The notes under the pieces were generated by a model. That model did not search any database. It was not told the origin of the DNA and was given only the letters and a program-made list of their open reading frames with translations. The translations under genes and the position numbers were made by a program. From the NCBI GenBank assembly GCA_023205875.1, contig CP060754.1, forward strand, positions 310,001 to 374,000: 64,000 nucleotides of DNA, read 5' to 3'. This stretch comes from Chloropicon primus. Its lineage: Eukaryota > Chlorophyta > Chloropicophyceae > Chloropicales > Chloropicaceae. This document shows, piece by piece, positions 1-37,126 of the stretch (position 1 is its first letter; each line of letters opens with the position of its first letter).

Positions 1-2279
1 AGGAGGAGTATCTCGGGGAAGAGCTGGAAGACGACGTCATTTTCGATGGGGGCTACCGCCTGTCCTCTGATCGGTACAACGAGTTATTTGATTACCAGAG
101 GACGGGGGTGAAGTGGCTGTGGGAGCTGCACAATCAGGGGGCAGGGGGTATACTTGGGGACGACATGGGTCTCGGGAAGACCGTGCAAGTGATTTCATTC
201 CTTGAAGGTCTCCTGAAAAGTGGAATGTACGACACGTCAATAATCGTATGTCCCGTGACTCTCATGTCACACTGGGCAAGGGAATTCAGGAGGTGGGCTC
301 CTATGTTCAAAGTCTTCATCCTGCACGACAGTTTCTTCAAAACCAATGCGCTGAAGGAGAGCCAGAAGAGGGGGTCCATGCAGTTCCGGGTGATCAACGC
401 TGCTTTGAAGTCGAGCAGGGGCATTCTCATCACCTCGTACGAGCAACTTCGGCTGAAGCAGGAGCACCTCTTGTGCTTTCAGTGGGGCTACGCAATCCTG
501 GACGAGGGCCACAAGATACGCAACCCAAATATCGAGCTTACCCTCGTCTGTAAGCAGCTGTCCACCCCTCACAGGATTGTCCTTACGGGCGCGCCGATAC
601 AGAACAGACTCGTTGAGATATGGTCCTTGTTTGACTTCGTCTTTCCGGGAAAGCTGGGAACTTTGCCGGTCTTCACCTCCCAGTTTTCGGTGCCGATACA
701 GATGGGCGGCTATGCTCACGCCTCAAAGCTTCAGATCACCACGGCATACAAGTGCGCTTTGATCCTCCGGGACCTGATAAGCCCGTACCTCCTGAGGCGT
801 AAGAAAGTGGATGTCAACATCAATCTCCCAAAAAAATCGGAGCACGTTCTGTTCTGCCTGCTTGGCGAGGAGCAGCTTGATTTGTACAGGGACTACCTGT
901 CCTCTCACGACTGTGCGTCGATCATGGAAGGGAAGATCGATCCCCTCGCGGGAATAGATACGATGAAGAAAATTTGTAATCACCCAGACCTCCTTGATTT
1001 GAACACGGAGTGCGTGACTGAGTACGGGGATCCGCAAAGGTCGGGCAAGCTCCAAGTCCTGATAAAAGTGCTCGAAAAGTGGTGCTGCGATGGACACAAA
1101 GTCCTCGTGTTCTCCCAGACGAGGCAGATGCTCAATATTATCGAACACGCCGTGCAGAAGATGGACTACAGGCACTTGAGGATGGATGGCACAACTGCGA
1201 TTCAGAGGAGGCAGCAGCTCGTGGATACCTTCAACGAGACGGAGGACATCAAAATATTTTGCTTGACCACCCGGGTTGGTGGCCTGGGCTTGAACCTGAC
1301 CGGGGCAGACAGGGTGATTCTGTACGACCCGGATTGGAACCCGTCCACCGATCTTCAGGCTCAAGAACGTTCGTGGCGGATCGGTCAGCAGAATGAGGTC
1401 GTGGTTTACAGATTGGTGACGAGCGGGACGATCGAGGAGAAGATATACAATCGCCAGATATTCAAGCAGTTTCTCACCAGTAAAGTGCTGGAGGACCCGA
1501 AGCAGAGGCGAGCCTTCCAGAACGAGGACATCCGCGAGTTGTTCGTCCTGGGGGACGAATACAAGGAGGGAAACAGCAACCTGAAGGAGATCACGAACAT
1601 TGAAGCACAGCTGATGCCCGACGAGATTGTAAAGGATGAGGATGGCGCAGGCTCTGGAGCGGCGAAGGAGTCGGTGATCTTGCAATCTCTCATGGAGGGA
1701 GATGTCGTCTCAAAGGCCCTGTGTCACGAAAAGATCATGACGGCGGACACTTCGGCGCCTCCGAGTTACGACCAGAAGGCGTCGGAGATTGCTCGCAGGG
1801 CAGCGGAGCTCATGAAGAAATCGCAAAGAGACTGCGCCTTGCACGCCGTTTCAACTCCCACTTGGACGGGCAACTCTGGGTCCGCAGGAGCCCCAAGGCT
1901 CGGCAGCGCAAAGTCTCCAGGAGTCCCGAGGTTCGGCAGCGCAAAGTCCTCCTCCACCAGGCGGTTTGGTGGGCCAGTGGGCATAGCTGGCATTGGCGGC
2001 GAGGTCTTGACGTCAAAGGAACTGGTTGAGCACATAAGGAAGAGGGATAGGGACGTGGCCGAGTACCAGGGCGAGGGAGAGGCCTTGGCAAAATCCCTTT
2101 TGGATGACGTCATCATTTACTTCAAAGGCAGAGGCGCATCCGCTGTCACGGAGGACATCGTGGAGCACTTTGACTACCTGGAGAAGGCCAAGTCCAGGCT
2201 ATTCAAGCAGGTTCTCAAGCAAGCTGCAAAGTTCAGCAGTGCCGAAGGTCTCTGGACGTTAAGGAGGGAATTCTTGTAA
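1..2279 (+). CDS. ERCC6: CSB/ERCC6-type SNF2 ATPase, 5'-truncated by window edge
   Basis: This is a SNF2-family DNA-dependent ATPase of the Cockayne syndrome B (Rad26) type, which remodels stalled RNA polymerase II and starts transcription-coupled repair in the nucleus. The frame is open from base 3 with no start codon, so the N-terminus lies outside the window. Visible motifs are GDDMGLGKT (Walker A, about 155-180), DEGH (motif II, about 505), LTGAPIQN (motif III), and in lobe 2 FCLTTRVGGLGLNLTGADR and RSWRIGQ. The stretch reading YRLSSDRYNELFDYQRTGVK just before motif I is typical of CSB rather than of other SNF2 groups. After the helicase core there is a GSAKS-repeated linker (about 1880-1970) and a helical C-terminal segment that may match the CSB C-terminal winged-helix/ubiquitin-binding part. 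The subfamily call is confident; the C-terminal domain is inferred. Confidence 0.93.
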   Translation, partial: EEYLGEELEDDVIFDGGYRLSSDRYNELFDYQRTGVKWLWELHNQGAGGILGDDMGLGKTVQVISFLEGLLKSGMYDTSIIVCPVTLMSHWAREFRRWAPMFKVFILHDSFFKTNALKESQKRGSMQFRVINAALKSSRGILITSYEQLRLKQEHLLCFQWGYAILDEGHKIRNPNIELTLVCKQLSTPHRIVLTGAPIQNRLVEIWSLFDFVFPGKLGTLPVFTSQFSVPIQMGGYAHASKLQITTAYKCALILRDLISPYLLRRKKVDVNINLPKKSEHVLFCLLGEEQLDLYRDYLSSHDCASIMEGKIDPLAGIDTMKKICNHPDLLDLNTECVTEYGDPQRSGKLQVLIKVLEKWCCDGHKVLVFSQTRQMLNIIEHAVQKMDYRHLRMDGTTAIQRRQQLVDTFNETEDIKIFCLTTRVGGLGLNLTGADRVILYDPDWNPSTDLQAQERSWRIGQQNEVVVYRLVTSGTIEEKIYNRQIFKQFLTSKVLEDPKQRRAFQNEDIRELFVLGDEYKEGNSNLKEITNIEAQLMPDEIVKDEDGAGSGAAKESVILQSLMEGDVVSKALCHEKIMTADTSAPPSYDQKASEIARRAAELMKKSQRDCALHAVSTPTWTGNSGSAGAPRLGSAKSPGVPRFGSAKSSSTRRFGGPVGIAGIGGEVLTSKELVEHIRKRDRDVAEYQGEGEALAKSLLDDVIIYFKGRGASAVTEDIVEHFDYLEKAKSRLFKQVLKQAAKFSSAEGLWTLRREFL

Positions 2280-23449: not shown

Positions 23450-24790
23450 ATGGCGACGTTCGGGCGGCAAATGTCGACGTAAGTGACCCATCGCCTCAGC
23501 GTTCCGGTCGAATGCCCCGTGCATGCCTCTCCCCCCCCTTGTTTCCTGGCTCGCGAGCGCGGGCGTCATGGGGTTTCCAATCGCATTCCAAGCCCTAGCC
23601 CGGCTTGCCTTGTTCGTGCTTGAAAGCGCTGCGATCTCGCGGCTCGAGGGAATTCTCTTTCGCTCTCGTCGCGCGCTTCTGCTGTCCCGTGCCTTCGCTG
23701 ACGACGCTTCTTGTTCGTTTCTCAGGGTGTTGAAGAGGGCACTTTGGGCTGATGTTTCGGTCCTCGGTGTTGCCCGCAGCATGTCGGGCGAGGTAAGAGA
23801 GACTCCGCTGCCCACGCCGCGCCCCCGTTTCTCGGCGGACTTGCGCTTGGTGCTGACAATCGAATTTTCGTCTCTTTGTTGTGCCACCAGGCGTACAATC
23901 CTGCAGTCTTTGTGGACAAGAACACCAAGGTTATCTGCCAGGGGTTTACAGGAAAGACGGGAACCTTCCACTCGGAGCAGGCGATAGCCTACGGAACGAA
24001 CATGGTGGGCGGTGTGAACCCAAAGAAGGGCGGCTCGACTCACCTCGGACTCCCGGTGTTCAAAAGCGTGGCAGAGGCGAAGGAGGAGACAGGCTGCAAC
24101 GCCTCAGTAATTTATGTCCCCCCTCCGTTCGCCGCGGCGGCCTGCCTGGAAGCTATCGAGGCCGAGATTGACTTGGTGGTGTGCATCACGGAGGGCATTC
24201 CTCAGCACGACATGGTGAAGGTCAAGAGCGCCCTGATGCAGCAGAGCAAGACGAGGATGATCGGCCCAAACTGCCCAGGAATCATCAAGCCTGGGGAGTG
24301 CAAGATAGGCATCATGCCCGGCTACATCCATACCCCAGGAAGGATCGGAGTCGTCTCCCGAAGTGGAACCCTCACGTACGAGGCCGTGTTCCAGACCACC
24401 AACGAGGGCTTGGGCCAGTCCACCGTTGTTGGCATCGGCGGAGACCCCTTCAACGGGACGAACTTCATCGACTGCCTCGAGAAGTTTGTGAAGGACCCCC
24501 AGACCGAGGGCATCATCATGATCGGAGAGATCGGAGGAAGCGCCGAGGAGGAAGCCGCGGAGTTCATCAGGGCCTCGGGCACTGACAAGCCCGTGGTCTC
24601 CTTCATCGCGGGTCTCACGGCCCCACCAGGAAGGAGGATGGGCCACGCCGGTGCAATCATCTCCGGAGGCAAGGGAACCGCGACCGACAAGATCAAGGCC
24701 CTCGAGGCCGTCGGTGCCACCGTCGTTCAGTCCCCAGCAGTCATGGGTGTAGCCATGAAGAAGCTTTTCGAGGAGCGTGGCTTGTTGTGA
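23450..24790 (+). CDS. SUCLG1: succinyl-CoA ligase alpha subunit, mitochondrial, three exons
   Basis: The alpha subunit of succinyl-CoA synthetase, the substrate-level phosphorylation step of the TCA cycle in mitochondria. Exons 23450-23478, 23726-23792 and 23891-24790 join at GT-AG borders (introns 247 and 98 bp) to give 331 residues. The two short first exons encode the leader (MATFGRQMS...[12 protein letters not shown]). The CoA-binding domain has [14 protein letters not shown]. The ligase domain has [20 protein letters not shown] and the phospho-histidine loop [18 protein letters not shown]. The length is typical. The next gene starts only 158 bp downstream on the same strand. Confidence 0.96.
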
Positions 24791-24948
24791 ATCAGTTCTT
24801 AAAGCAACATTTCAACCCATTCTTAAAAACAACAACTTATTGGTATTCATTGCCCCTCTTCCTCTTCACAGTCTCAAAATCTCGGCTGTCAGCGAAGCAG
24901 ACAGACAGTGCCACCTCAAGGAAGAGGGGGGAGAGTCAGCACGCAAAC

Positions 24949-27027
24949 ATGTTCGCCAAGCTGACGAGTTTGGTTACGGGGACGTCCCTCCCGTTCACCC
25001 TCGGGGAGGACAAGGGGACGGCTTGGAACTGGTGGACGCTCCACGACGCGACGTGGAAAGCGGACGGAACGAACGTGTCGGTGTTCAAGGCCGTCATTTC
25101 CCTCTCGGACGACGCCAAGTTGAACTTGGCGAGGAACAGCTTGAAGAGGCTCAGGGGCCTGAAGCACCCGAGCATCGTGAGCTTCAAAGACTCTCTTGAA
25201 TCGGCTGACCGGTCGAACGTGACGTTTTACATCGTAACCGAGCGAGTCATGACACTTGCTTCCTTTCTCGCCATGGACGAGATGCAGGGAAACACTTCGG
25301 AGGTCCTGGCGTGGGGTTTGAGGGCTGTGGTGAGCGGCATAAGCTTTCTGACGAACGAATGCAAGCTCGTGTACGGCAGCCTTTGCTACAACTCCGTGTT
25401 CGTGTCCCACACTCTGGACTGGAAGCTGGGAATTTTCGACCTCCTCAGCGAGCACGCTGGCATGGACAAGGCCATGGACCCTCAACCTTTTGTGCAAGGC
25501 CTCCCGTTGGTCAGCGCGCAATACCTTCCGGGGGAGGTGCACAAAAAAGAGTGGCAACTGGTGAAGGATGGGCCCGCGTGGGGCATCGATGCCTGGGGCC
25601 TGGGCTGCTTCATGCAGGAGCTCTTCAAAGGAAGCACGATGGCAGCGGTCTCCGAGCTCAGGGATCTGCAATCAATCCCAAAAGGCCTCCAAGGCGATTA
25701 TCAGCGGCTATTAAGCTCCCAGCCGCACAAGCGACTCAATCCGGCGCAGCTGCTTCAGAGGAACTCGTTCTTCAGAACCAAGTTGAGTGACATTGTGGTC
25801 TTTCTGGACAACCTCCTCCTGAAGGAGGAAGTGGAGAGAAACAGATTCTTTAGAAGCCTCAAGCAAGCTCTGCGGTCTTTGCCTAGCTTCTTGATCCAGA
25901 GGAAGATTTTGCCTGCCTGCCTCTCCGTGGTGGAGTTCGGGAACGTGTCTACGCCGGCGCTGCAGGCTATCCTTGATTTGGTGGAGTGCGTGGGCGACGA
26001 AAAGTACTTTGAGACTGGCGTCCTCCCTTTCATCCTGAAGTTGCTGGCGTCTCCGGACGTCTCCGTGAGACTGCTGCTGCTGCAGAGCGTGGAAAAATTC
26101 ATCACATTGCTCTCAGCAACAACAATCGAGAAGCAGTTCTACCCAGCAATGCAATCGTACTTCAAGGATCCGGACCCCAGAATCAGGGACCAGACAATCA
26201 AGTGCATGAGCCTTTTGGCCCCCAAAATGAACCAAAAGATCCTGAACTCGTCTCTGCTCCAGCACTTGGCGCAGCTGCAGAGGGATCCGGAGGCTGCGAT
26301 CAGGACCAACACGACTGTGCTGATTTCCAAAATTTCACAGTTTTTGGGCGAAGCCTCTTGCAAGAGGATTCTCCTGAACGCTTTCACGAGAGTTCTGAAT
26401 GACCCAGTGGCGACAGTGAGAAACGCTGGAATTCTGGCGCTGAAAGAGACGAGTCAGTATTATAGCGAAGAGGACATCGCAAGGAAGCTGATACCCACAC
26501 TGGCTCCGTTGGTCACGGACCCGGACCCAAGCATAAGTGTGAGCAGTTTCCAGTGCCTCGAAAAGAATTTCGAGGTTTTGAAGAATTACAACAAGAAGAG
26601 GGAAACGGAGTTGGCCTCGGCTCCACCTGAACCTGCTGCCCCACCAAATCCCTCGCAGGGTAACGGCAACAGCGCGGAAACCTTCAACATGGATGCCCCT
26701 CTCGTGGATGAGTGGCGACCAGAAGCCGAGGACAACAACCTGGTCCTTGGTGACGATGGGGGCTGGGACGATGATGGGCTGGAGGATATGTTGCAGGGCC
26801 AAGAGAGCACCACGAACCCCCTGTCGGGGTTGGATGACAGTGTGAGCCAACAGATGAGCGAGCTCATGGGAGGAGGATCAGGCGGGAGCAACACAAGGAG
26901 CGGTGCACCGATGGGGAGGAAGCACCTGTCTCCTCCTCGGAAACCCAGCAAGAAGCCAATGAAGCTCGGTGCGACGAAAAGGGCGACGAAGAGCGACGAT
27001 GCCTGGGGGGACTTGCTCAACGACTAG
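24949..27027 (+). CDS. SCYL1: SCYL1-like pseudokinase with HEAT repeats
   Basis: A 692-residue SCY1-like (N-terminal kinase-like) protein that in animals binds COPI coats and tRNA-export factors. The start is the ATG at 24949 (MFAKLTSLVTGTSLPFTLGE); a longer frame upstream is only open leader. Residues about 25-300 form a kinase-like domain lacking the HRD and DFG motifs (KLVYGSLCYNSVFVS and LGIFDLL stand in), so it is predicted inactive. Residues about 330-560 are HEAT repeats (DPDPRIRDQTIKCMSLLAPK, DPVATVRNAGILALKETSQY). The tail is disordered and ends with KPMKLGATKRATK, similar to the KLGAKK-type motif of plant and animal SCYL1, then DDAWGDLLND. Confidence 0.9.
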   Translation: MFAKLTSLVTGTSLPFTLGEDKGTAWNWWTLHDATWKADGTNVSVFKAVISLSDDAKLNLARNSLKRLRGLKHPSIVSFKDSLESADRSNVTFYIVTERVMTLASFLAMDEMQGNTSEVLAWGLRAVVSGISFLTNECKLVYGSLCYNSVFVSHTLDWKLGIFDLLSEHAGMDKAMDPQPFVQGLPLVSAQYLPGEVHKKEWQLVKDGPAWGIDAWGLGCFMQELFKGSTMAAVSELRDLQSIPKGLQGDYQRLLSSQPHKRLNPAQLLQRNSFFRTKLSDIVVFLDNLLLKEEVERNRFFRSLKQALRSLPSFLIQRKILPACLSVVEFGNVSTPALQAILDLVECVGDEKYFETGVLPFILKLLASPDVSVRLLLLQSVEKFITLLSATTIEKQFYPAMQSYFKDPDPRIRDQTIKCMSLLAPKMNQKILNSSLLQHLAQLQRDPEAAIRTNTTVLISKISQFLGEASCKRILLNAFTRVLNDPVATVRNAGILALKETSQYYSEEDIARKLIPTLAPLVTDPDPSISVSSFQCLEKNFEVLKNYNKKRETELASAPPEPAAPPNPSQGNGNSAETFNMDAPLVDEWRPEAEDNNLVLGDDGGWDDDGLEDMLQGQESTTNPLSGLDDSVSQQMSELMGGGSGGSNTRSGAPMGRKHLSPPRKPSKKPMKLGATKRATKSDDAWGDLLND

Positions 27028-27092: not shown

Positions 27093-27755
27093 CTATGCTT
27101 TGAAGACAGCGGAGGCTGAGATAATGATGGCCACGATGACCCCAAAGAGACCCAGGGCACTACCGAAGATCTCTATCACTAGAATTTTCACGAAGAGTGT
27201 TGAGTTCTGCGCGTCTGCCAGCGCACAGCTGCTCCCGACAATGCCCACGCAGATCCCACACACCAGGTTGGACAGGCCCACGCACAGACCCGAGCCAAAA
27301 ACTGCATACCCAGCCTTTAGTATTCCCACGCTCCACTCCCCGTCAGAGCCTATGGGCACGTCCTCCACTTTCGTCTGTAGGATGATGGCGGTGATTACGC
27401 CGTAGATGGCCGCAGCCTCGCAAAAGATGACACTGATCAGGTTCTTGCTCGTTATCCGAGGCGCCTTCACGGCCGCACCCACTAAACTACTGCCCGTCAA
27501 GAAGATGCCCCTGCGCGCGCGTTCCGGGGAAGTGAAGTGAAGAGGGAGAGAGCGACAACAATGAGGTCAGTTCCCTTGCTCGAACTTTTCACGAACGCGC
27601 GCGCCGAGCAAGCGTCCGTCGGCTTGGCCTCTCCTTCTCACTTACCACGCAGCCCCAGCAACGGAGAGTCCGATCGCCAACGCACAACCCAGGGAAGCCC
27701 ACATGTACGGGCTGATGTGCCTGAACACGAGACCCATGTACTCGTAGTCCACCAT
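27093..27755 (-). CDS. VMA16: V-type H+-ATPase proteolipid subunit c'' (two exons)
   Basis: A rotor-ring proteolipid of the V-ATPase membrane sector, moving protons through vacuolar/endomembranes. Exons 27755-27646 and 27510-27093 join across a 135-bp intron within codon TG|G, giving 175 residues. Exon 1 supplies the first helix ([20 protein letters not shown]). Exon 2 has [20 protein letters not shown] with the proton-carrying Glu, and [20 protein letters not shown] plus [15 protein letters not shown]. These identify c'' (ATP6V0B/VMA16) rather than c. A TTACA (TGTAA on the minus strand) at 27060 fits its polyadenylation signal. It is divergent from eIF5B. Confidence 0.95.
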
Positions 27756-28070: not shown

Positions 28071-31000
28071 ATGGGCAAGAAGAACAAGAAGGGAAAGAAG
28101 AAGGCGCAGGACCTTGACGACTACCCTGACTACGACGATGACCTGGATCCTTTAAAGGGCGGAGGCGAGGCCGGGGAGGCTACGGACGGGAACGGTGACG
28201 GAGGAGAGGAGGACGAGGGGGCTGTGGAGCCACCGAAACCAGTGGCAGGGAAGAAGAAGGGGAAGAAGGGGAAGAAGGGGAAGAAGCAGCAAGTCAAGTT
28301 CGACGATAGCGACAGCGACGATGACTTCGATCCTTTGAAGAGCAAGCCGGCGGGTGGATTCGCCGCGCTCGGGGCGGGAGACGACTCCGATGAGGAAGCC
28401 GAGGAGGCGAGCTCCGAGGAAGAGGAGGAGACAGGTGGCAAGTCAAAGGGAGCCTCGGGCTTCGCTGCGCTGATGGGCGACGACGACGATGAGGACGAAG
28501 AGTCGGAGGAGGACGAGCCGGTCGTGAAGAAGTCCAGTGGCTTCGCCGCTCTCATGGCGGACGGGGACGAGGACGAGTCGGAGGAGGAGGAGGAGGAGGA
28601 GGAGGAGGATGAGCCGGTCGTGAAGAAGTCCAGTGGTTTCGCCGCTCTCATGGCGGACGAGGGCGAGGAGGAGGAGGAAGAGGAGGAGGAGGAGGAGCCA
28701 GACATGGCCAAACCAAGTGGCTTCGCCGCACTGACTTTGCTGGGGGGAGGGAGTGAGAGCGAGAGTGAGAGCGACCAAGACACAGACAGCGAGAGCGGTG
28801 AAGAGGCCGTGCTTCCTATTACTGGAAAGGTGCTGTCGACGGAGGACCACCCGAATGCAGACAAGCTGAAAGTTGTCGAGATTGATGCAGGGGATCGCAC
28901 GTATCAGATCGTTACGAGCGCAAAGAACGTGAAGAAGGGGAGGAGAGTCGCCTTGGCCCGTCCGGGCTGTGTCACCTGGGGAACCGGGATCAAGATAGAG
29001 AAGACCGAAATGAGGGGGATGGAGAGTGAGGGAATGGTTTTGTCGACCCTTGATCTTGGCTGGGAGACCGAGAAGAGCAAGAAGGCAGCGATCTTGCCCA
29101 AGAAGTGGAAGGCAGGCCACGAGGTGCCCAGAGAGATGCCAGAAGAAATGAAAGAGGACGGTGGAGTGGACCTCAGTGTGTTCGAAACGGGGAAGAAGAA
29201 GAAGAAGTCGAAGAAGGACAAGACCAAGGATTCTGATGCGGCGGAAGAGGAAGGCAGCCCAGATGAGGTGGACTTGAGCGCTTTCGGAAAGAAGAAGAAA
29301 AAGTCAAAGAAGAGCAAGGGAGGGGATTCTGAGATTTCCATGGAGAAGCTCTCTCTCGAGGAAAAGGAGGCTCCCAGCCCAGTGGAAGACGCCAAGCCCC
29401 CTCCTCCTGCTGAGAAGGAAGAAAGCGCCCCGGCCTTCGATGCATCCGCTTTTGCAACCAAAGGGAAAAAGAAGAAGAACAAGAAGAAGAACAAGAAGGA
29501 GCCGCAGCCTGCAGACGACTTGGATGACATCGATGCGATTCTTGCTCAGCTTGATGGGCCAGCCCCGGTCACAGAGGAGGCCAAGCCTGAGCCTGCCCCC
29601 GAGGAAGCAAAGCCAGAAGAGCCTGCTGAGGAAGAAGAGCCTAAAGCTCTCACCGCGAATCAGAAGAAGAAGCTCAAGAAGAAGCAGAAGGAAGCGGAGA
29701 GAAAGGCTCGGTTGGCAGCAGGCGAGGTTGATGAAAGTGAAACCAAATCCCCTGCCAAGGGCAAGAAGGGAGGCAAGCCAGTGTCTGCTGCTGTGAAGAA
29801 GATGCAGGAGGAACTGGAAAAGAGAAAGCAAATGGAAGAAGAGCAGGCGAGGCTGGAGGAAGAGCAGAGGAAGAAAGAGGAAGAGGAGGAAGCACAGCGT
29901 CTTGAGGAGGAAAGAATCAAAGAAGAAAAGAGGAAGCTGAAGAAGGAGAAGGAGCGACTGAAGAAGGAGAAGGCGAGGAAGGAAGGTAAATTGCTCACGG
30001 GCAAGGCCAAGGAGGAGGCAAAACGCCTTGCGGCCATGAGGGAGCAGATGCTTCGCCAAGCCGGCATCCTGCCCGATTCTGCTGAAGCAGAAGGCGGCGT
30101 GCGGAAGAAGGTTGTGTATGAAAAGAAGAAGAAGCGCCCCGCTCCAGCTGCAAAGCAGGAAGAGGTTAAAAAGGTGGAAGAGGAAAAGAAAGAGGAGGAA
30201 GTACCAGCCAAAGCAGAGGAGGAGGTGGTTGAGGAGACTGCCGTTGAGGAAGAACCTGTCGGGGACTGGGACGAGGTTGACTGGGAGGAGAAAGCAGATG
30301 AGAAATCCAGCTCTGCGGCACAAGCTGGCGCAAACGACGAGGCCGAGGACGACGATGAAGACAGCGATGAGTATTCGGAGTCGGACCTTGACAGTGACGA
30401 AGAGCTTGAGAGAAGGATCGAAGCCGCCCGTGAAAAACGACATGAGCGTCAAAGGGAGGCCATGAAGAACAGGTCTCCAGACCACCTTAGATCTCCAATC
30501 TGCTGTATTCTTGGGCACGTTGACACAGGAAAGACAAAGCTGTTGGACAAGATCAGGGGAACAAATGTGCAAGACGGCGAAGCTGGTGGTATCACACAAC
30601 AGATAGGTGCCACCTATATCCCGGGTAAAGAGATTGCCACGAGGACCGAGTGCCTTGGAGATAAGCAGATGAAAGGATCGAAGTTGCCGGGATTACTCGT
30701 CATTGATACTCCTGGTCACGAGTCTTTCACTAACCTGAGGTCGAGGGGAAGTGGTCTCTGTGACATTGCTATCCTTGTCGTGGATATCATGCACGGCCTG
30801 GAGCAGCAGACTATCGAATCTTTGAACATGTTGAAGATGAGGAAGACGCCATTCATCATTGCTCTCAACAAGGTTGACCGCATGTATGATTGGAAACCCA
30901 TACCAAATGGCGGATTCAGAGAAACGCTTGCATCGCAGGGAGACCACGTCCAGCAGGAATTCAAGAAGCGCTACAACGATGCAGTATTGGCTCTGAACCA

Positions 31001-32273
31001 GGAGGGAATGAACGTTGCTCTGTACTGGGAGAATCCTGATATCAAATCTTACGTCTCTATCGTTCCTACGTCTGCTATCACGGGAGAAGGAATTCCAGAC
31101 ATTCTCAATTTGTTGGTGACGCTCACTCAGCAGATGATGGTCGAAAGGCTCATGCACACGGAATACCTCCAGTGCACTGTATTGGAAGTCAAGCAGATCG
31201 AAGGTTTGGGAACAACAATTGATGTGATTCTCATCAATGGAACCCTGCGTGAGACGGACACGATCGTCGTCTGTGGTCTTGGAGGTCCCATCGTCACGCC
31301 AGTGCGCGCCCTTCTGACGCCTCACCCCATGAGAGAGATGAGAGTGAAGGGTTCCTACTTGCACCACAAGGAAATAGAAGCTGCCCAGGGTGTCAAAATC
31401 TGTGCAAACGACTTGGAAGGAGCTTTGGCTGGAACTCCGCTGTTTGTCCTGGGCCCAGAGGACGACGAGGAAGATCTCAAGGACGAAGTCGTCTCGGACG
31501 TCCAGAGCATTTTGGGCCAAGTCGACAAGAGTGGAGAAGGCGTGTGCGTTCAGGCGTCTACCCTTGGTTCCTTGGAAGCTTTGCTGGAATTCTTGAAGTC
31601 TCCAGATGTGAGGATCCCAGTCTCGGGGATTTCAATCGGCCCCGTCCACAAGAGAGATGTCATGAAGGCGAGTATCATGCTTGAGAGGAAGAAGGAGTAC
31701 GCGGTTATTCTTGCCTTTGATGTCGATGTGTCCAGGGAAGCTCGGGAGATGGCCAAGGAGCTCGACATCAAGATTTTCACGGCGGACATTATTTACCACC
31801 TTTTCGACCAGTTCACCGCGTACATGAAGAAGGTCAAGGAGGACAGGAAGAAAGAAGTGGCCCTGGATGCCACTTTCCCTTGCGTTCTCAAGATTTTGCC
31901 AACTTGCATCTTCAACAAGAAGGATCCCATTGTCCTGGGTGTTGAGGTCCTCGGTGGCATCGCAAAGGTTGGCTCTCCCTTGTGTGTCCCGACACAAGAC
32001 TTTGTCGAGATAGGAAGGATCGCTTCGCTGGAGAAGAACCACAAAGCTGTTGACAAAGCGTACGTGGGTGACTCGGTTGCCATGAAAGTGAACAGCACAA
32101 CTGCCCTGGAAGCTTCTAGGATGTACGGAAGGCACTTCGATCACACGGACGAGCTGGTGAGCAGGATCAGCAGGCATTCCATCGACTTGCTCAAGGAGAA
32201 CTACCGAGATGAGTTGACAAAGGAGGACTGGCAGCTCGTGCTGAAGCTCAAGCACCTGTTCCAAATCCAGTGA
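28071..32273 (+). CDS. EIF5B: translation initiation factor eIF5B with an inserted tRNA-binding (EMAPII/Arc1-type) domain
   Basis: A 1400-residue GTPase that joins the 60S subunit in the last step of initiation. The start is [11 protein letters not shown] at 28071. The acidic N-terminal region has five GFAAL-containing repeats (about residues 95-225). Residues about 248-332 then form a complete tRNA-binding OB-fold domain ([48 protein letters not shown]), the type found in PheRS-beta, MetRS and Arc1p. Several [14 protein letters not shown]-type Lys repeats and a long Lys/Glu coiled tract follow. The catalytic part is canonical: G1 [16 protein letters not shown], switch [15 protein letters not shown]3 [16 protein letters not shown]4 NKVDR, then domains II-IV. 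To my knowledge eIF5B does not normally carry a tRNA-binding domain; the frame is continuous, so the fusion looks real. Confidence 0.95.
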
Positions 32274-32315: not shown

Positions 32316-33812
32316 TTAAGCAGGATTGACTTTTTGCTCCAGCAGGAGAGGCTTGTCGTCGCAGCAGATCGCGTAGACGACCGCGGCGCCAATGTACATC
32401 AATGCTGTGATCTGAAAGACGCTGGTGAAGGACCCTGTCTTCTCCAAGATGAACCCGGATATGGATACGCTCAAGATCCCGGCGAACGAGCCCAGGGTGT
32501 TGCTCAGCCCAAAAAGCTTTCCCGCGCTCTGCTCGGCGACGTCGGACATGTTGGCCACGAAGCCGGCCTGGCCAAGGGCCTTCAGGCCAAGGGCCACCAT
32601 GAAGAGAGGCACCGCAACCTCCAACCTGTTTCCCATCGGGTGAGAGATGACGAGGAGGGTCGACGCCGTTCCCAGGAACGACGTGCACTGCAAGGCCTTC
32701 CTGGCGTTCTTCACGGCCATCCCCCTTCGGATCAGGTAGTCCGCGAGGACTCCCGCGAGCGAGCTGCAGATCGCCATCACCAACCAAGGCAAGAGGGAGA
32801 AGATGCTCGATTTCGCGAGGTCCAGGGAGAACTGCCTGTTGAAGTAGGTCGGCAGCCAGCTCAGGTAGATGAAGTAGCCCCAGTGGTTCACGAAGTTGGC
32901 CAGGAAGATGGCCCAGGTGGACGCGCTGGACAAGAGCCGGGATATCGGGATGGCCCCGCCCTTGGCCCCCCCGCCGTCGCCCCTCCCCGAGGGGGAGTCC
33001 GGCACGGTGGACTGCCAGAAGAGCAGCACCGGCAGACCCAGCAGGCCGAAGGCGTAGAAGATCGACCGCCACCCGAAGTTCGCGATGAGGAAGGGCGACA
33101 GCAGCAGGCCCAAAATGTTTCCCGAGTGGAATCCCGCGAAGGATATTCCCAGGGCGGTGGCCCGCCTCTCGGCCCTCACGTTCTTCCCGATGAGGTTGTT
33201 CATGGACGGCAGGGCGACCCCCTCGCCCAGCCCAACGAGCGCCCTGGTCAGAAGGAGCGGGCCCTGGCCCAGCCCGGCCGCGACGGGGGTGAGAGCGGTC
33301 GCCACGGAGAACCACGCCACGCTAACCGCCATGACGACCTTTCCCCCGAAGGCGTCCGCGAGGATGCCTCCGAGGAGCTGCGTCCCCATGTACCCCCACA
33401 GGAAGGCGCTCTGGACCACGCCCGACACCGTGTCCGACCAGCCGAACTCGGCAGCCGCTTTGAGGACCGCTATGCTCATGCAGATGCGACAGATGTTGCA
33501 CAGCAGCAGGCTGCAGGCCGTGGGCATCGCGATCGAGAACAGGGAAGAGGGGGCGTCCCGCCTCGCCCCGCTCTCGGCCGACTCCAAGGCCCGGAGGGCG
33601 GGCGGACCCCGCCCAGGAGAAGGCTGCTCGCGGCGAGTGCATTGACGACGAAAACACCGTCGTCGTGGAGGATCTCGTCGACCAAGAGACCGAGAGGAGA
33701 GCCGACGAGAAGAAGAGAGCCGACCGGCCTCCCTGATCCCGGGCGAGAATCTGCGCGAGCCGTGGCGAGACCCCGGCCTCGCGAGGGGCCTGGGTCTGTC
33801 CACAGTCACCAT
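32316..33812 (-). CDS. plastid PHT4/SLC17-like anion (phosphate) transporter, MFS
   Basis: A 498-residue major facilitator with about 12 hydrophobic segments. The first 90 residues are Arg/Ser/Pro-rich, resembling a plastid transit peptide. Motifs such as SAFLWGYMGTQLLGGILADA, RALVGLGEGVALPSMNNLIG, GWRSIFYAFGLLG and HWGYFIYLSWLPTYFNRQFS are those of the anion transporter (ANTR/PHT4) group related to animal SLC17 Na+/phosphate carriers. Phosphate or a related anion across a plastid envelope or thylakoid membrane is the likely substrate, inferred from family. It is convergent with eIF5B; the two stops are only 42 bp apart. It is divergent from CP12. Confidence 0.88.
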   Translation of the reverse strand: MVTVDRPRPLARPGSRHGSRRFSPGIREAGRLSSSRRLSSRSLGRRDPPRRRCFRRQCTRREQPSPGRGPPALRALESAESGARRDAPSSLFSIAMPTACSLLLCNICRICMSIAVLKAAAEFGWSDTVSGVVQSAFLWGYMGTQLLGGILADAFGGKVVMAVSVAWFSVATALTPVAAGLGQGPLLLTRALVGLGEGVALPSMNNLIGKNVRAERRATALGISFAGFHSGNILGLLLSPFLIANFGWRSIFYAFGLLGLPVLLFWQSTVPDSPSGRGDGGGAKGGAIPISRLLSSASTWAIFLANFVNHWGYFIYLSWLPTYFNRQFSLDLAKSSIFSLLPWLVMAICSSLAGVLADYLIRRGMAVKNARKALQCTSFLGTASTLLVISHPMGNRLEVAVPLFMVALGLKALGQAGFVANMSDVAEQSAGKLFGLSNTLGSFAGILSVSISGFILEKTGSFTSVFQITALMYIGAAVVYAICCDDKPLLLEQKVNPA

Positions 33813-34819: not shown

Positions 34820-37126
34820 TCACCAGTCGTCGTCCTCGGAGTCGTCCTCAAAGTCGTCCTCCTCGCTGTCCGTGCCTTCCATCGCGAGCCTCCTGGCCTT
34901 GGCCTTCTCATAAATAGCGGCCACCGTCATCATGGTGTCGTCCTTCTCCTCCTCCTCAGGGATCTCCTCGATGACGTTCAGGGTGCTGCTGGGCTTGCCC
35001 AGCCCCTTGGGCGTGAAGGACGTGGTCATCTTCCTCAGAGCAAACTGACCGCCCTTGATCTTGTTCAGCATGTCGTCCCTAGCCTCGAGCTTCTTTGGCG
35101 CCTTGGCCGGCGTCTTCTGGAGGTTCTTGTGCCTGGCCTTGATCATGCTCGCGAGATCGCCCGAGTCCGCGCTCACGGAAACCTTCTTCTTGAAGGCCGA
35201 CGGGGTCTTCTTAAGCGCAGACTTCAATCCGCCCGCGCTCGGCACCGGCGGAGGCACCACTGGTGGAGGCCCTCCGGCGGGCGGCGGCGGTGAGGGTGCT
35301 CCCGCGGCAGGCGCTGGAGGTGGTGGCGGTGGAGGCGGTGGGGGGGGTGCCGCGCTTGGAGGCGGCGGTGGCGGTGGGGGTGCCATGGTGGGCGGTGGAA
35401 CAGGAACAGAGGCCGGCATCACGTGCACAGAAGGCGCAGGCGCCCGAAGGGGCTGCATTGGTACTTGCTGTGCTGCTTGTACCGGGGCTTGGGCATAGTG
35501 CAATGCCTGGGGCTGCTGCTGCGGCGGCATGTATACCTGTTGTTGTTGTGGCGGTTGTGGTGCAGCGTATTGCTGCTGTTGGGGTGTGTAGTGGACAGGT
35601 TGCTGCTGCTGCAGAGAAAGCGGAGCTTGCATTCCTTGTTGTGGCTGTTGTTGGTATTGTGGTTGTGGCATGTGTTGTTGGTGCCCCTGGAAAAGGTGCT
35701 GGGGTGGGGGTGGGGGAGACCTTGTCGCCTGGTGTCCCTGCTGCTGCGGGCTCTGCTGGGCTATCGTCAGCAGCTGGTTCGGATAGGTCTGGTAGACCAC
35801 CTGTTGCCCCCCGACCTCCTTGACAGGCGTGAAGAAGCTGTCCGGCAGCACCCTCTCCGTGGGGCTTCGGTTCGGCTGCGCTTGTGTAATATACATGTAG
35901 TGGGTGTCCACCGCCGGGTTTGCAGCCTGGGGCGAGACAGGACCATGAGGCGTCCTGCCCGACACTGTGGCTTGCCTCTCCGTCTGCATGGTCGTGAGGT
36001 TGTTCCTGGGGGGGTGAGACAGGAGCACGTGGTCGACGCTCTGGCTCTGAGAATAATTCACACGGCTTTGGAACGCGTAAGGCTTCGGGCTCGTCACGAC
36101 CGGCGTGTGAGTCCTTCCGGCCATCTTCTCAAGGAGATGTGCCGGTGGCGGTGGAGGCCTCGCCGTGGGCCTGGCCACTGGCTGCTGCACCACCTGGATG
36201 GGTGTGTGCACAATGTTCTGAACCGGCATGTACTGCAGAGCCGCGGCCTGGAGAGTCTCCTCCACAGGCTGGGGCTCTTGCTCTTCCGCCTGCTCTTGCT
36301 CTTTCACCTGCTCGTCCTCTGGCTCCTGCTCGGACTCCAACATCTGGGTCTCCTCTTCCGTTGCATCTTCCCCCCCTGCCATCTCCTCCTGCTTGTCCGC
36401 CACCGAGTGCTTCGCTATCGACTTGATTTTCGTTGTCATCAAGGACAACCCGATCATCGAGTACCTTCGCCTGGTGCTTCTGTGCACCTTCCCGATAGAG
36501 CCTTCGATGACACTTCCCCGCTTTCCGAGCCTGTCTCCCGGAGACATTCTTTCCCTTCTCAGTCTCCTCTTTTCCCGTCTGGCTGCGTGAATTCTCTCGG
36601 CCTCCTCCATTTCCTGGATCGCAAAGGCTCTCATGCAATACTTCGGGTCTGAGAAGCGCTTGAGCGCCTCCTTGTCCTCCTCTGTCTTCGCATAAGGTTT
36701 CAGCAGATGCAGGGGCGGCAGTTTCTCGCATTTGTTTCTGTCCTCGTCAATGAATTCCGGCCTGCTCCGTGCCGTGATGAAGTTCGTCTCCTTGCCGACT
36801 CTTTGAGGGAAGCTGGCGTGCCACTCGATCAGCGGATTGGTGATGAACTCCGAAACCCCCTGGGACTGCACGGTGTCCACGCACTCGTCCACCTGTGGCG
36901 AGAGTTCGCTGCACTTTTGGCTCAAATCCTCGACCCTCTTGTCTACCCTCTCTATCTCGGTCTTGACCCCGTCGAAGATTTCGACGGCGTATTCGGAGAA
37001 GTCCGCCATCTGCCTCAGAAGGCCTGTCAGGTAAGCCATCGAGAAGTGAGCAGACACATCGTGGGGCGAGTTGAGGTCCGCCTTCTCGTAGATTGGCTTG
37101 CACTCCAGCCCAAAAGCCCTCTCCAT
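34820..37126 (-). CDS. SCAR: SCAR/WAVE homologue, activator of the Arp2/3 complex
   Basis: A 768-residue protein with the layout of SCAR/WAVE, which nucleates branched actin through Arp2/3. Residues about 1-210 resemble the Scar homology domain (helical, ending with a basic region RREKRRLRRERMSPGDRLG). The middle is Gln/Pro-rich and includes long polyproline runs (about 575-640), the usual profilin/SH3 region. Two WH2-like motifs follow (DLASMIKARHKNLQKT, about 655; DDMLNKIKGGQFALRKM, about 685), then a strongly acidic end finishing in DDSEDDDW, where the terminal Trp is the Arp2/3-binding residue of VCA domains. Residue positions are approximate. TTACA at 34773 fits its polyadenylation signal. 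Confidence 0.88.
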   Translation of the reverse strand: MERAFGLECKPIYEKADLNSPHDVSAHFSMAYLTGLLRQMADFSEYAVEIFDGVKTEIERVDKRVEDLSQKCSELSPQVDECVDTVQSQGVSEFITNPLIEWHASFPQRVGKETNFITARSRPEFIDEDRNKCEKLPPLHLLKPYAKTEEDKEALKRFSDPKYCMRAFAIQEMEEAERIHAARREKRRLRRERMSPGDRLGKRGSVIEGSIGKVHRSTRRRYSMIGLSLMTTKIKSIAKHSVADKQEEMAGGEDATEEETQMLESEQEPEDEQVKEQEQAEEQEPQPVEETLQAAALQYMPVQNIVHTPIQVVQQPVARPTARPPPPPAHLLEKMAGRTHTPVVTSPKPYAFQSRVNYSQSQSVDHVLLSHPPRNNLTTMQTERQATVSGRTPHGPVSPQAANPAVDTHYMYITQAQPNRSPTERVLPDSFFTPVKEVGGQQVVYQTYPNQLLTIAQQSPQQQGHQATRSPPPPPQHLFQGHQQHMPQPQYQQQPQQGMQAPLSLQQQQPVHYTPQQQQYAAPQPPQQQQVYMPPQQQPQALHYAQAPVQAAQQVPMQPLRAPAPSVHVMPASVPVPPPTMAPPPPPPPPSAAPPPPPPPPPPPAPAAGAPSPPPPAGGPPPVVPPPVPSAGGLKSALKKTPSAFKKKVSVSADSGDLASMIKARHKNLQKTPAKAPKKLEARDDMLNKIKGGQFALRKMTTSFTPKGLGKPSSTLNVIEEIPEEEEKDDTMMTVAAIYEKAKARRLAMEGTDSEEDDFEDDSEDDDW

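Follow-up and report, generated by a model that had tools for sequence, protein, structure and literature searches.

We found that the gene for translation initiation factor eIF5B in a window of 64,000 nucleotides of the green alga Chloropicon primus (contig CP060754.1, positions 310,001 to 374,000) encodes, upstream of its GTPase core, a complete tRNA-binding OB-fold domain (tRNA_bind, PF01588) of the bacterial PheRS-beta B2/YtpR subtype. This green-algal fusion is a real, ancient and under-described variant of eIF5B. A tRNA-binding domain inside one continuous eIF5B frame had been proposed from the nucleotide letters, and this original prediction was borne out: the domain is complete and in frame, and a Pfam search of the residue stretch, the check it had named, gave a PF01588 match of 64.8 bits (E 8.1e-18, cut-off 27) over profile positions 3-95 of 96. 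The proposed span, 28810-29065 (residues about 248-332), located the domain correctly but ended too early, missing roughly the final 55 bases of its true extent (28821-29120). PF01588 was matched by 20/20 aligned eIF5B domains, an EMAPII-like OB-fold was recognized as well, and the predicted model of the domain reached a predicted local distance difference test (pLDDT) score of 95.6. As in other members of the eIF5B/IF2 family of translational GTPases, GTP_EFTU, domain II, IF-2 domain III and domain IV are all present, in that order, and NCBIfam NF003078 was matched at 616.8 bits against a cut-off of 468. The frame is open throughout in the window, with no intron across 1400 residues, and the gene is single-copy, with one full-length match in its own genome and remaining matches that are partial and much weaker.

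Protein-level comparisons with two metagenomic relatives showed that the domain is almost as slow to change as the eIF5B core, whereas the extension around it changes fast. Residues 251-350 were identical at 91/100 and 86/100 ungapped positions and the cores at 94% and 94% (93-94% across comparisons), whereas identity was 62% and 60% over residues 1-250 and 68% and 75% over linker residues 366-780. Judged from these identities, the domain is most likely maintained by purifying selection in green algae.

By both sequence and fold, the best match of the domain was the bacterial PheRS-beta B2/YtpR subtype, to which we assign it. The PheRS-beta type scored 109 bits and the Trbp111/Arc1p/EMAPII type 21-30 bits, so that of the EMAPII/Arc1/PheRS-beta type originally proposed, the PheRS-beta part stood and the EMAPII/Arc1 part was dropped, fold and profile comparisons agreeing. 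When proteins were searched with residues 225-365, 38 matches were obtained, namely two eIF5Bs with PF01588 (P0002 and P0003) and 36 proteins with the PheRS-beta domain set. Compared with domain B2 of the PheRS beta subunit (PheT), the OB-fold sits in a translation GTPase without the B3/4, B5, core and FDX-ACB domains, and none of the companion families PF03483, PF03484, PF17759 and PF03147 was among the Pfam families of this eIF5B; it also has W331 and T282, where PheRS mostly has Leu/Ile and Cys. YtpR proteins (3bu2, 9a77) are small, separate and bacterial, unlike the domain fused here to eIF5B, and the YtpR NCBIfam equivalog cut-off of 100 bits exceeds the scores of the eIF5Bs (67.9 for P0001, 83.9 for P0117, 85.0 for P0059). 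With Trbp111, Arc1p and EMAPII, the domain shares the fold class and most of the 3'-CA pocket residues, but it is clearly more distant from them, shares with PheRS-beta an additional stretch ahead of the L45 loop, and is without R75 and K73 of Trbp111. Weak relatives of the domain, encoded separately, were also observed on two IMG/VR viral contigs, L087 (3001-3243, a frame of 112 residues, 74.9 bits) and L088 (3001-3222, 99 residues, 45.9 bits).

To describe the distribution of the fusion, we used a GTPase-core search in which 7991 candidates were scored and 6190 passed; the sample, the best 120 of 6190, thus speaks for neither red algae and glaucophytes nor the remaining streptophyte algae, nor for most non-plants. 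Looking for PF01588 in green-algal eIF5Bs had been advised with the original prediction, and the family was found on 33/120 listed eIF5Bs by precomputed annotation. Our own domain profile found it in 36/121, comprising the window protein, those 33, and P0047 and P0048, in which the start of the domain is missing; this amounts to 35/120 listed relatives. The domain is thus not peculiar to one lineage, as had been supposed, and occurs across Chlorophyta and in Closterium. The named carriers include Myrmecia, Auxenochlorella, Trebouxia, Parachlorella, Coccomyxa, Elliptochloris, Symbiochloris, Volvox and Closterium; one further carrier, P0095, we take from its identifier to be Botryococcus, another, P0116, has an MMETSP transcriptome identifier, and many are metagenome proteins. 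In the Elliptochloris sequence (P0064), the latter half of the domain differs from that of the other carriers, perhaps through a gene-model error. In the other 85 rows no domain remnant was detected by our profile at E 1e-3, 14 of these rows being shorter than 1150 residues and possibly N-terminally truncated. A third protein search, with the P0058 region only, returned 11 proteins, none of them named outside green algae, and missed many known copies, so that its sensitivity is too low for absence elsewhere to be concluded.

In the eIF5B core tree (67 rows), carriers fall on either side of the chlorophyte-streptophyte divide, with Closterium and P0057 grouping with P0099 (99/91) and the other carriers lying among chlorophytes. 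P0099, whose identifier SM000001S04473 we read as Spirogloea, is a full-length streptophyte-algal sequence of 1726 residues without the domain. As labelled, the core tree requires 10 presence changes. The 11 rows on the chlorophyte side in which the domain is missing are all short (779-1131 residues), and 9 of them have N-termini that start downstream of the expected domain position or are unrelated sequence, so that these 9 are not countable as losses; the N-termini of P0066 and P0072 are sequence of their own. In the land-plant clade, the domain was found in 0/18 rows, 7 of them named by source, 17 at least 1167 residues long and one of 802 residues; the row P0101 in this clade is presumably Ginkgo, from its identifier. 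The earlier statement that no eIF5B with this domain is known in plants held for the named land plants among the 120 listed, none of which carries it. Compared with the sampled land-plant eIF5Bs, the N-terminal extension of the green-algal protein differs in carrying a structured tRNA_bind OB-fold, and no such OB-fold is known in the N-terminal extension of yeast or human eIF5B.

The eIF5B domains form one clade against bacterial PheRS-beta domains, both in a first tree (20 rows, 100/99) and in a second data set (19 rows, 100/99), each built on 110 columns with the bootstrap not settled. The second tree comprised the best 30 of 53 alphaproteobacterial, the best 20 of 50 gammaproteobacterial and 28 of 55 cyanobacterial domains, 20 others and 19 of the 20 eIF5B domains, P0063 being left out as a long branch. 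Because all sampled copies fall in one clade, the domain was probably acquired once, and the trees suggest that this single capture was probably early, before the chlorophyte-streptophyte split, the domain having later been lost from land plants and P0099. Alternatively, it may have been captured on one green side and transferred to the other, but the Closterium eIF5B core is streptophyte by the core tree.

For the donor, evenly drawn genomes were scored, and matches were obtained in 53/58 alphaproteobacteria, 50/56 members of the gammaproteobacterial class and 55/59 of the cyanobacterial phylum; the score sets hold the best match per genome, including fragments and low-scoring other proteins (31-34 bits). 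The median and best scores were 106.3 and 132.6 bits for alphaproteobacteria (n=53), 105.65 and 118 for the gammaproteobacterial class (n=50), and 89.2 and 108.2 for the cyanobacterial phylum (n=55), a set full of small low-scoring genomes. Scores of at least 119 were reached by 9/53 alphaproteobacteria and by none in the gammaproteobacterial and cyanobacterial samples. Alphaproteobacteria scored above cyanobacteria (p ~1e-5 with cyanobacteria restricted to >85 bits) and marginally above gammaproteobacteria (p 0.04). In approximately unbiased (AU) tests on the 110 columns, no grouping was rejected (alphaproteobacterial, p 0.30; cyanobacterial, p 0.193; gammaproteobacterial, p 0.313), and neither a cyanobacterial nor an alphaproteobacterial clade with the eIF5B domains was the best tree. 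A cyanobacterial (plastid) donor, our first guess, was unsupported, since cyanobacteria score lower than alphaproteobacteria, though with an AU p of 0.193; by score, a plastid source appears the least likely of the three sampled donor groups.

The pocket that receives the tRNA 3' end is largely retained. In the Trbp111-tRNA structure, the OB-fold grips the terminal C75-A76 through E32/K33 in the L12 loop and through K73, R75, I77, F78, S82 and M85 in the L45 loop; R75A leaves binding nearly gone, followed in effect by K33A, S82A, M85A and F78A (PMC11286949). In Arc1p, R274 stands at the place of F78, and R274A costs up to 9-fold, while V271 replaces R75; Arc1p still binds, but makes a further contact with the tRNA body (PMC11286949). 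Recognition of the tRNA 3' end by the tRNA_bind family was reported only in 2024 (PMC11286949). The window residues aligned to the Trbp111 pocket are D264-K265, E310, T312, M314, R315, S319 and M322. Over 36 carriers, which include near-identical rows, we found K/R at 265 (33/33), R/K at 315 (35/36), a hydrophobic residue at 314 (35/36), S at 319 (35/35) and M at 322 (34/35), and in 24 less redundant eIF5B rows S319 and G321 were invariant. Equivalents of K33, of F78 or Arc1p R274, of S82 and of M85 are all present, and by alignment the eIF5B pocket follows the Arc1p pattern and not the Trbp111 pattern. Lysine runs lie just past the domain (for example residues 375-382), within a region (residues 354-470) that is neutral overall, and these runs could provide such a further contact in eIF5B.

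On balance, we lean towards the reading that the domain is a flexibly tethered grip for the tRNA 3' end. A bacterial PheRS-beta-type B2 OB-fold would have been taken up by the N-terminal extension of cytosolic eIF5B, a region not otherwise conserved, and its L12 and L45 loops would capture the 3' terminal CA and raise the local concentration of tRNA, which on the ribosome would chiefly be Met-tRNAi. The tRNA would then be handed to domain IV at the opposite end of the protein, the part of e/aIF5B in which the initiator's methionylated CCA end is held (PMC7531240); alternatively, the OB-fold would hold eIF5B on initiation complexes. The domain itself, its fusion, single clade, distribution in the sample, conservation and subtype are observed. 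From the retained pocket we infer in turn that the domain binds tRNA, that this is initiator tRNA and that initiation is helped, through recruitment or subunit joining, and our confidence weakens in that order. The OB-fold is likewise an addition to a tRNA-handling protein in the aminoacyl-tRNA synthetases that carry a fused tRNA_bind domain, such as MetRS and human TyrRS (PMC11286949), where it supplies extra tRNA affinity, and a similar role may apply in eIF5B.

Several observations weigh against this reading. The equivalent of Trbp111 R75 (position 312) is R in 1/36 carriers, although it is also absent in Arc1p and does not define the class, and the equivalent of K73 (position 310) is K in 1/36. 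The domain is not generally basic, with a median net charge of -3 over 24 eIF5B rows and -2 over 140 PheRS-beta rows, and columns 310, 313 and 327, basic in PheRS-beta, are mostly non-basic in eIF5B. Conservation in the pocket may in part reflect the needs of the fold instead. Neither yeast nor land plants, whose sampled eIF5Bs are without the domain, need it. A review describes the N-domain of eukaryotic eIF5B as poorly conserved and, in yeast, dispensable (PMC7531240); another paper calls the N-terminal region non-essential and residues 587-1220 fully functional (PMC6208778). Since tRNA 3' ends in general are bound by the family, specificity for the initiator is unsupported; of the extra contact first suggested, the tRNA part is plausible, most known contact residues being kept. 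A bolder form of the tethered-grip reading is conceivable but tentative: eIF5B would be two-handed, with a second, independent 3'-CCA grip derived from a bacterial PheRS-beta fragment, possibly from the alphaproteobacterial/mitochondrial side, and would carry or capture initiator tRNA like bacterial IF2 and support initiation when eIF2 is limiting, an arrangement later given up by land plants.

The residues that distinguish the eIF5B form point to a rival in which the OB-fold no longer binds tRNA and docks onto a protein, such as the multi-synthetase complex, MetRS or a ribosomal protein, with W331 marking the interface. This residue is W in 34/35 eIF5B domains and in 0/140 PheRS-beta rows, and both the slightly negative median charge and the loss of the R75 and K73 equivalents fit docking; the S, M and K/R pocket positions, however, are nearly invariant, beyond what docking needs, even if several may serve the fold, and we consider this rival unlikely. 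Rather less probable still is binding of tRNA 3' ends by a domain that acts as a chaperone or localiser, or that senses or scavenges deacylated tRNA, and slows initiation when charging is low instead of helping the initiator. Trbp111 captures the tRNA 3' end and not the elbow or anticodon, and the fit of aminoacylated 3' ends is put forward by the authors only as speculation (PMC11286949), both of which suit a sensor; eIF5B, on the other hand, acts on ribosomes, whose P-site tRNA is charged, and no regulatory link was found, none having been looked for. A functionless fragment carried as a neutral passenger in the disordered extension would agree with the dispensable yeast N-domain and with the absence from sampled land plants, but it is very improbable because the domain is conserved (86-91% identity against 60-75% in the flanks) and its pocket residues are retained across green algae. 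An assembly or gene-model chimera can be dismissed with near certainty: repetitive flanking sequence can cause misassembly and nothing else was found in its favour, whereas the window frame is open throughout and the same fusion is shared by an MMETSP transcriptome protein and by independent assemblies, occurring in 35/120 listed relatives with JGI, ENA, NCBI, EukProt and TARA among the sources. Bacterial contamination was also rejected, the domain lying within one eIF5B frame and the core tree grouping the window protein with other algal eIF5Bs.

Prior cataloguing of the fusion, which had been named as a point that would refute the prediction if widespread, applies to machine annotation but not to the literature. 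PF01588 is already machine-annotated on green-algal eIF5B in the searched protein collection. In the open-access text covered, preprints excluded, no paper was found describing eIF5B joined with tRNA_bind, PF01588, an OB-fold or EMAPII, and where eIF5B and EMAPII are mentioned together they are treated apart; nor was an earlier account found of a translation initiation GTPase as the fusion partner, in contrast to the synthetase fusions. eIF5B/IF2 is among the few initiation factors common to all domains of life, and the extension called little conserved and dispensable in yeast (PMC7531240) here houses a conserved, structured module, with a PheRS-beta-type fragment surviving in the nuclear gene of an unrelated factor. 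If tRNA binding is true, green algae with the domain and land plants without it would form a natural experiment on the delivery of initiator tRNA to eIF5B, and the same contrast would inform initiation that bypasses eIF2.

Table 1 Features of the eIF5B gene and protein in the window.
Feature	Residues	Window positions	Strand	Basis
eIF5B coding sequence, 1400 residues	1-1400	28071-32273	+	Uninterrupted frame; ATG 28071, stop 32271-32273
N-terminal acidic segment, net charge -59, five [SG]GFAAL motifs	1-247	28071-28811	+	Charge and motif count
Minisatellite, 96-base unit, in frame, 2.2 copies, encoding acidic SGFAALM repeats		28491-28697	+	
tRNA_bind OB-fold domain, PheRS-beta B2/YtpR subtype	251-350	28821-29120	+	PF01588
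D264-K265-L266, L12 loop; aligned with tC75-binding E32-K33 of Trbp111	264-266	28860-28868	+	Alignment
M314-R315-G316-x-x-S319-x-G321-M322, L45 loop; aligned with Trbp111 I77-F78-G79-S82-G84-M85; R315 opposite Arc1p R274	314-322	29010-29036	+	Alignment
W331, residue specific to the eIF5B form	331	29061-29063	+	W in 34/35; 0/140 PheRS-beta rows
Charged low-complexity linker, OB-fold to GTPase core	354-805	29130-30485	+	Sequence, composition
GTP-binding domain PF00009 (GTP_EFTU)	809-1020	30495-31130	+	Pfam
GTP_EFTU_D2	1047-1122		+	Pfam, 29.9 bits, slightly below the 30.3 cut-off
IF-2 domain (domain III)	1138-1248		+	Pfam, above cut-off
Domain IV, PF14578 (GTP_EFTU_D4)	1270-1344	31878-32102	+	Pfam, above cut-off

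From its composition, the segment of residues 1-247 is probably disordered, and the charged linker before the GTPase is about 450 residues long. The [SG]GFAAL motif occurs five times between Glu/Asp runs at 28353-28733 of the window, partly inside the minisatellite. A looser form of it was observed upstream of the GTPase in 26/36 domain-bearing eIF5Bs and in 9/85 others, and the motif may be a short linear docking motif.

The genome comprises 17,584,162 bases in 20 contigs, of which contig 1 measures 1,855,637 bases, and the guanine-plus-cytosine content of the window is about 58%. Directly downstream of the eIF5B gene and tail to tail with it lies an MFS_1 transporter frame (32316-33812, minus strand, 157 bits). 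The head-to-head neighbour is a minus-strand frame at 27093-27500, which reads, by eye, like a V-ATPase proteolipid subunit c. A plus-strand frame at 24787-27027 shows a weak protein-kinase match (24.7 bits, cut-off 31.7) followed by HEAT repeats, a layout that we presume to be that of SCY1-like pseudokinases. A proline-rich frame of 768 residues with an acidic C-terminal tail (34820-37126, minus strand) had no Pfam match at E 1e-3, and its N-terminus may resemble that of SCAR/WAVE proteins.
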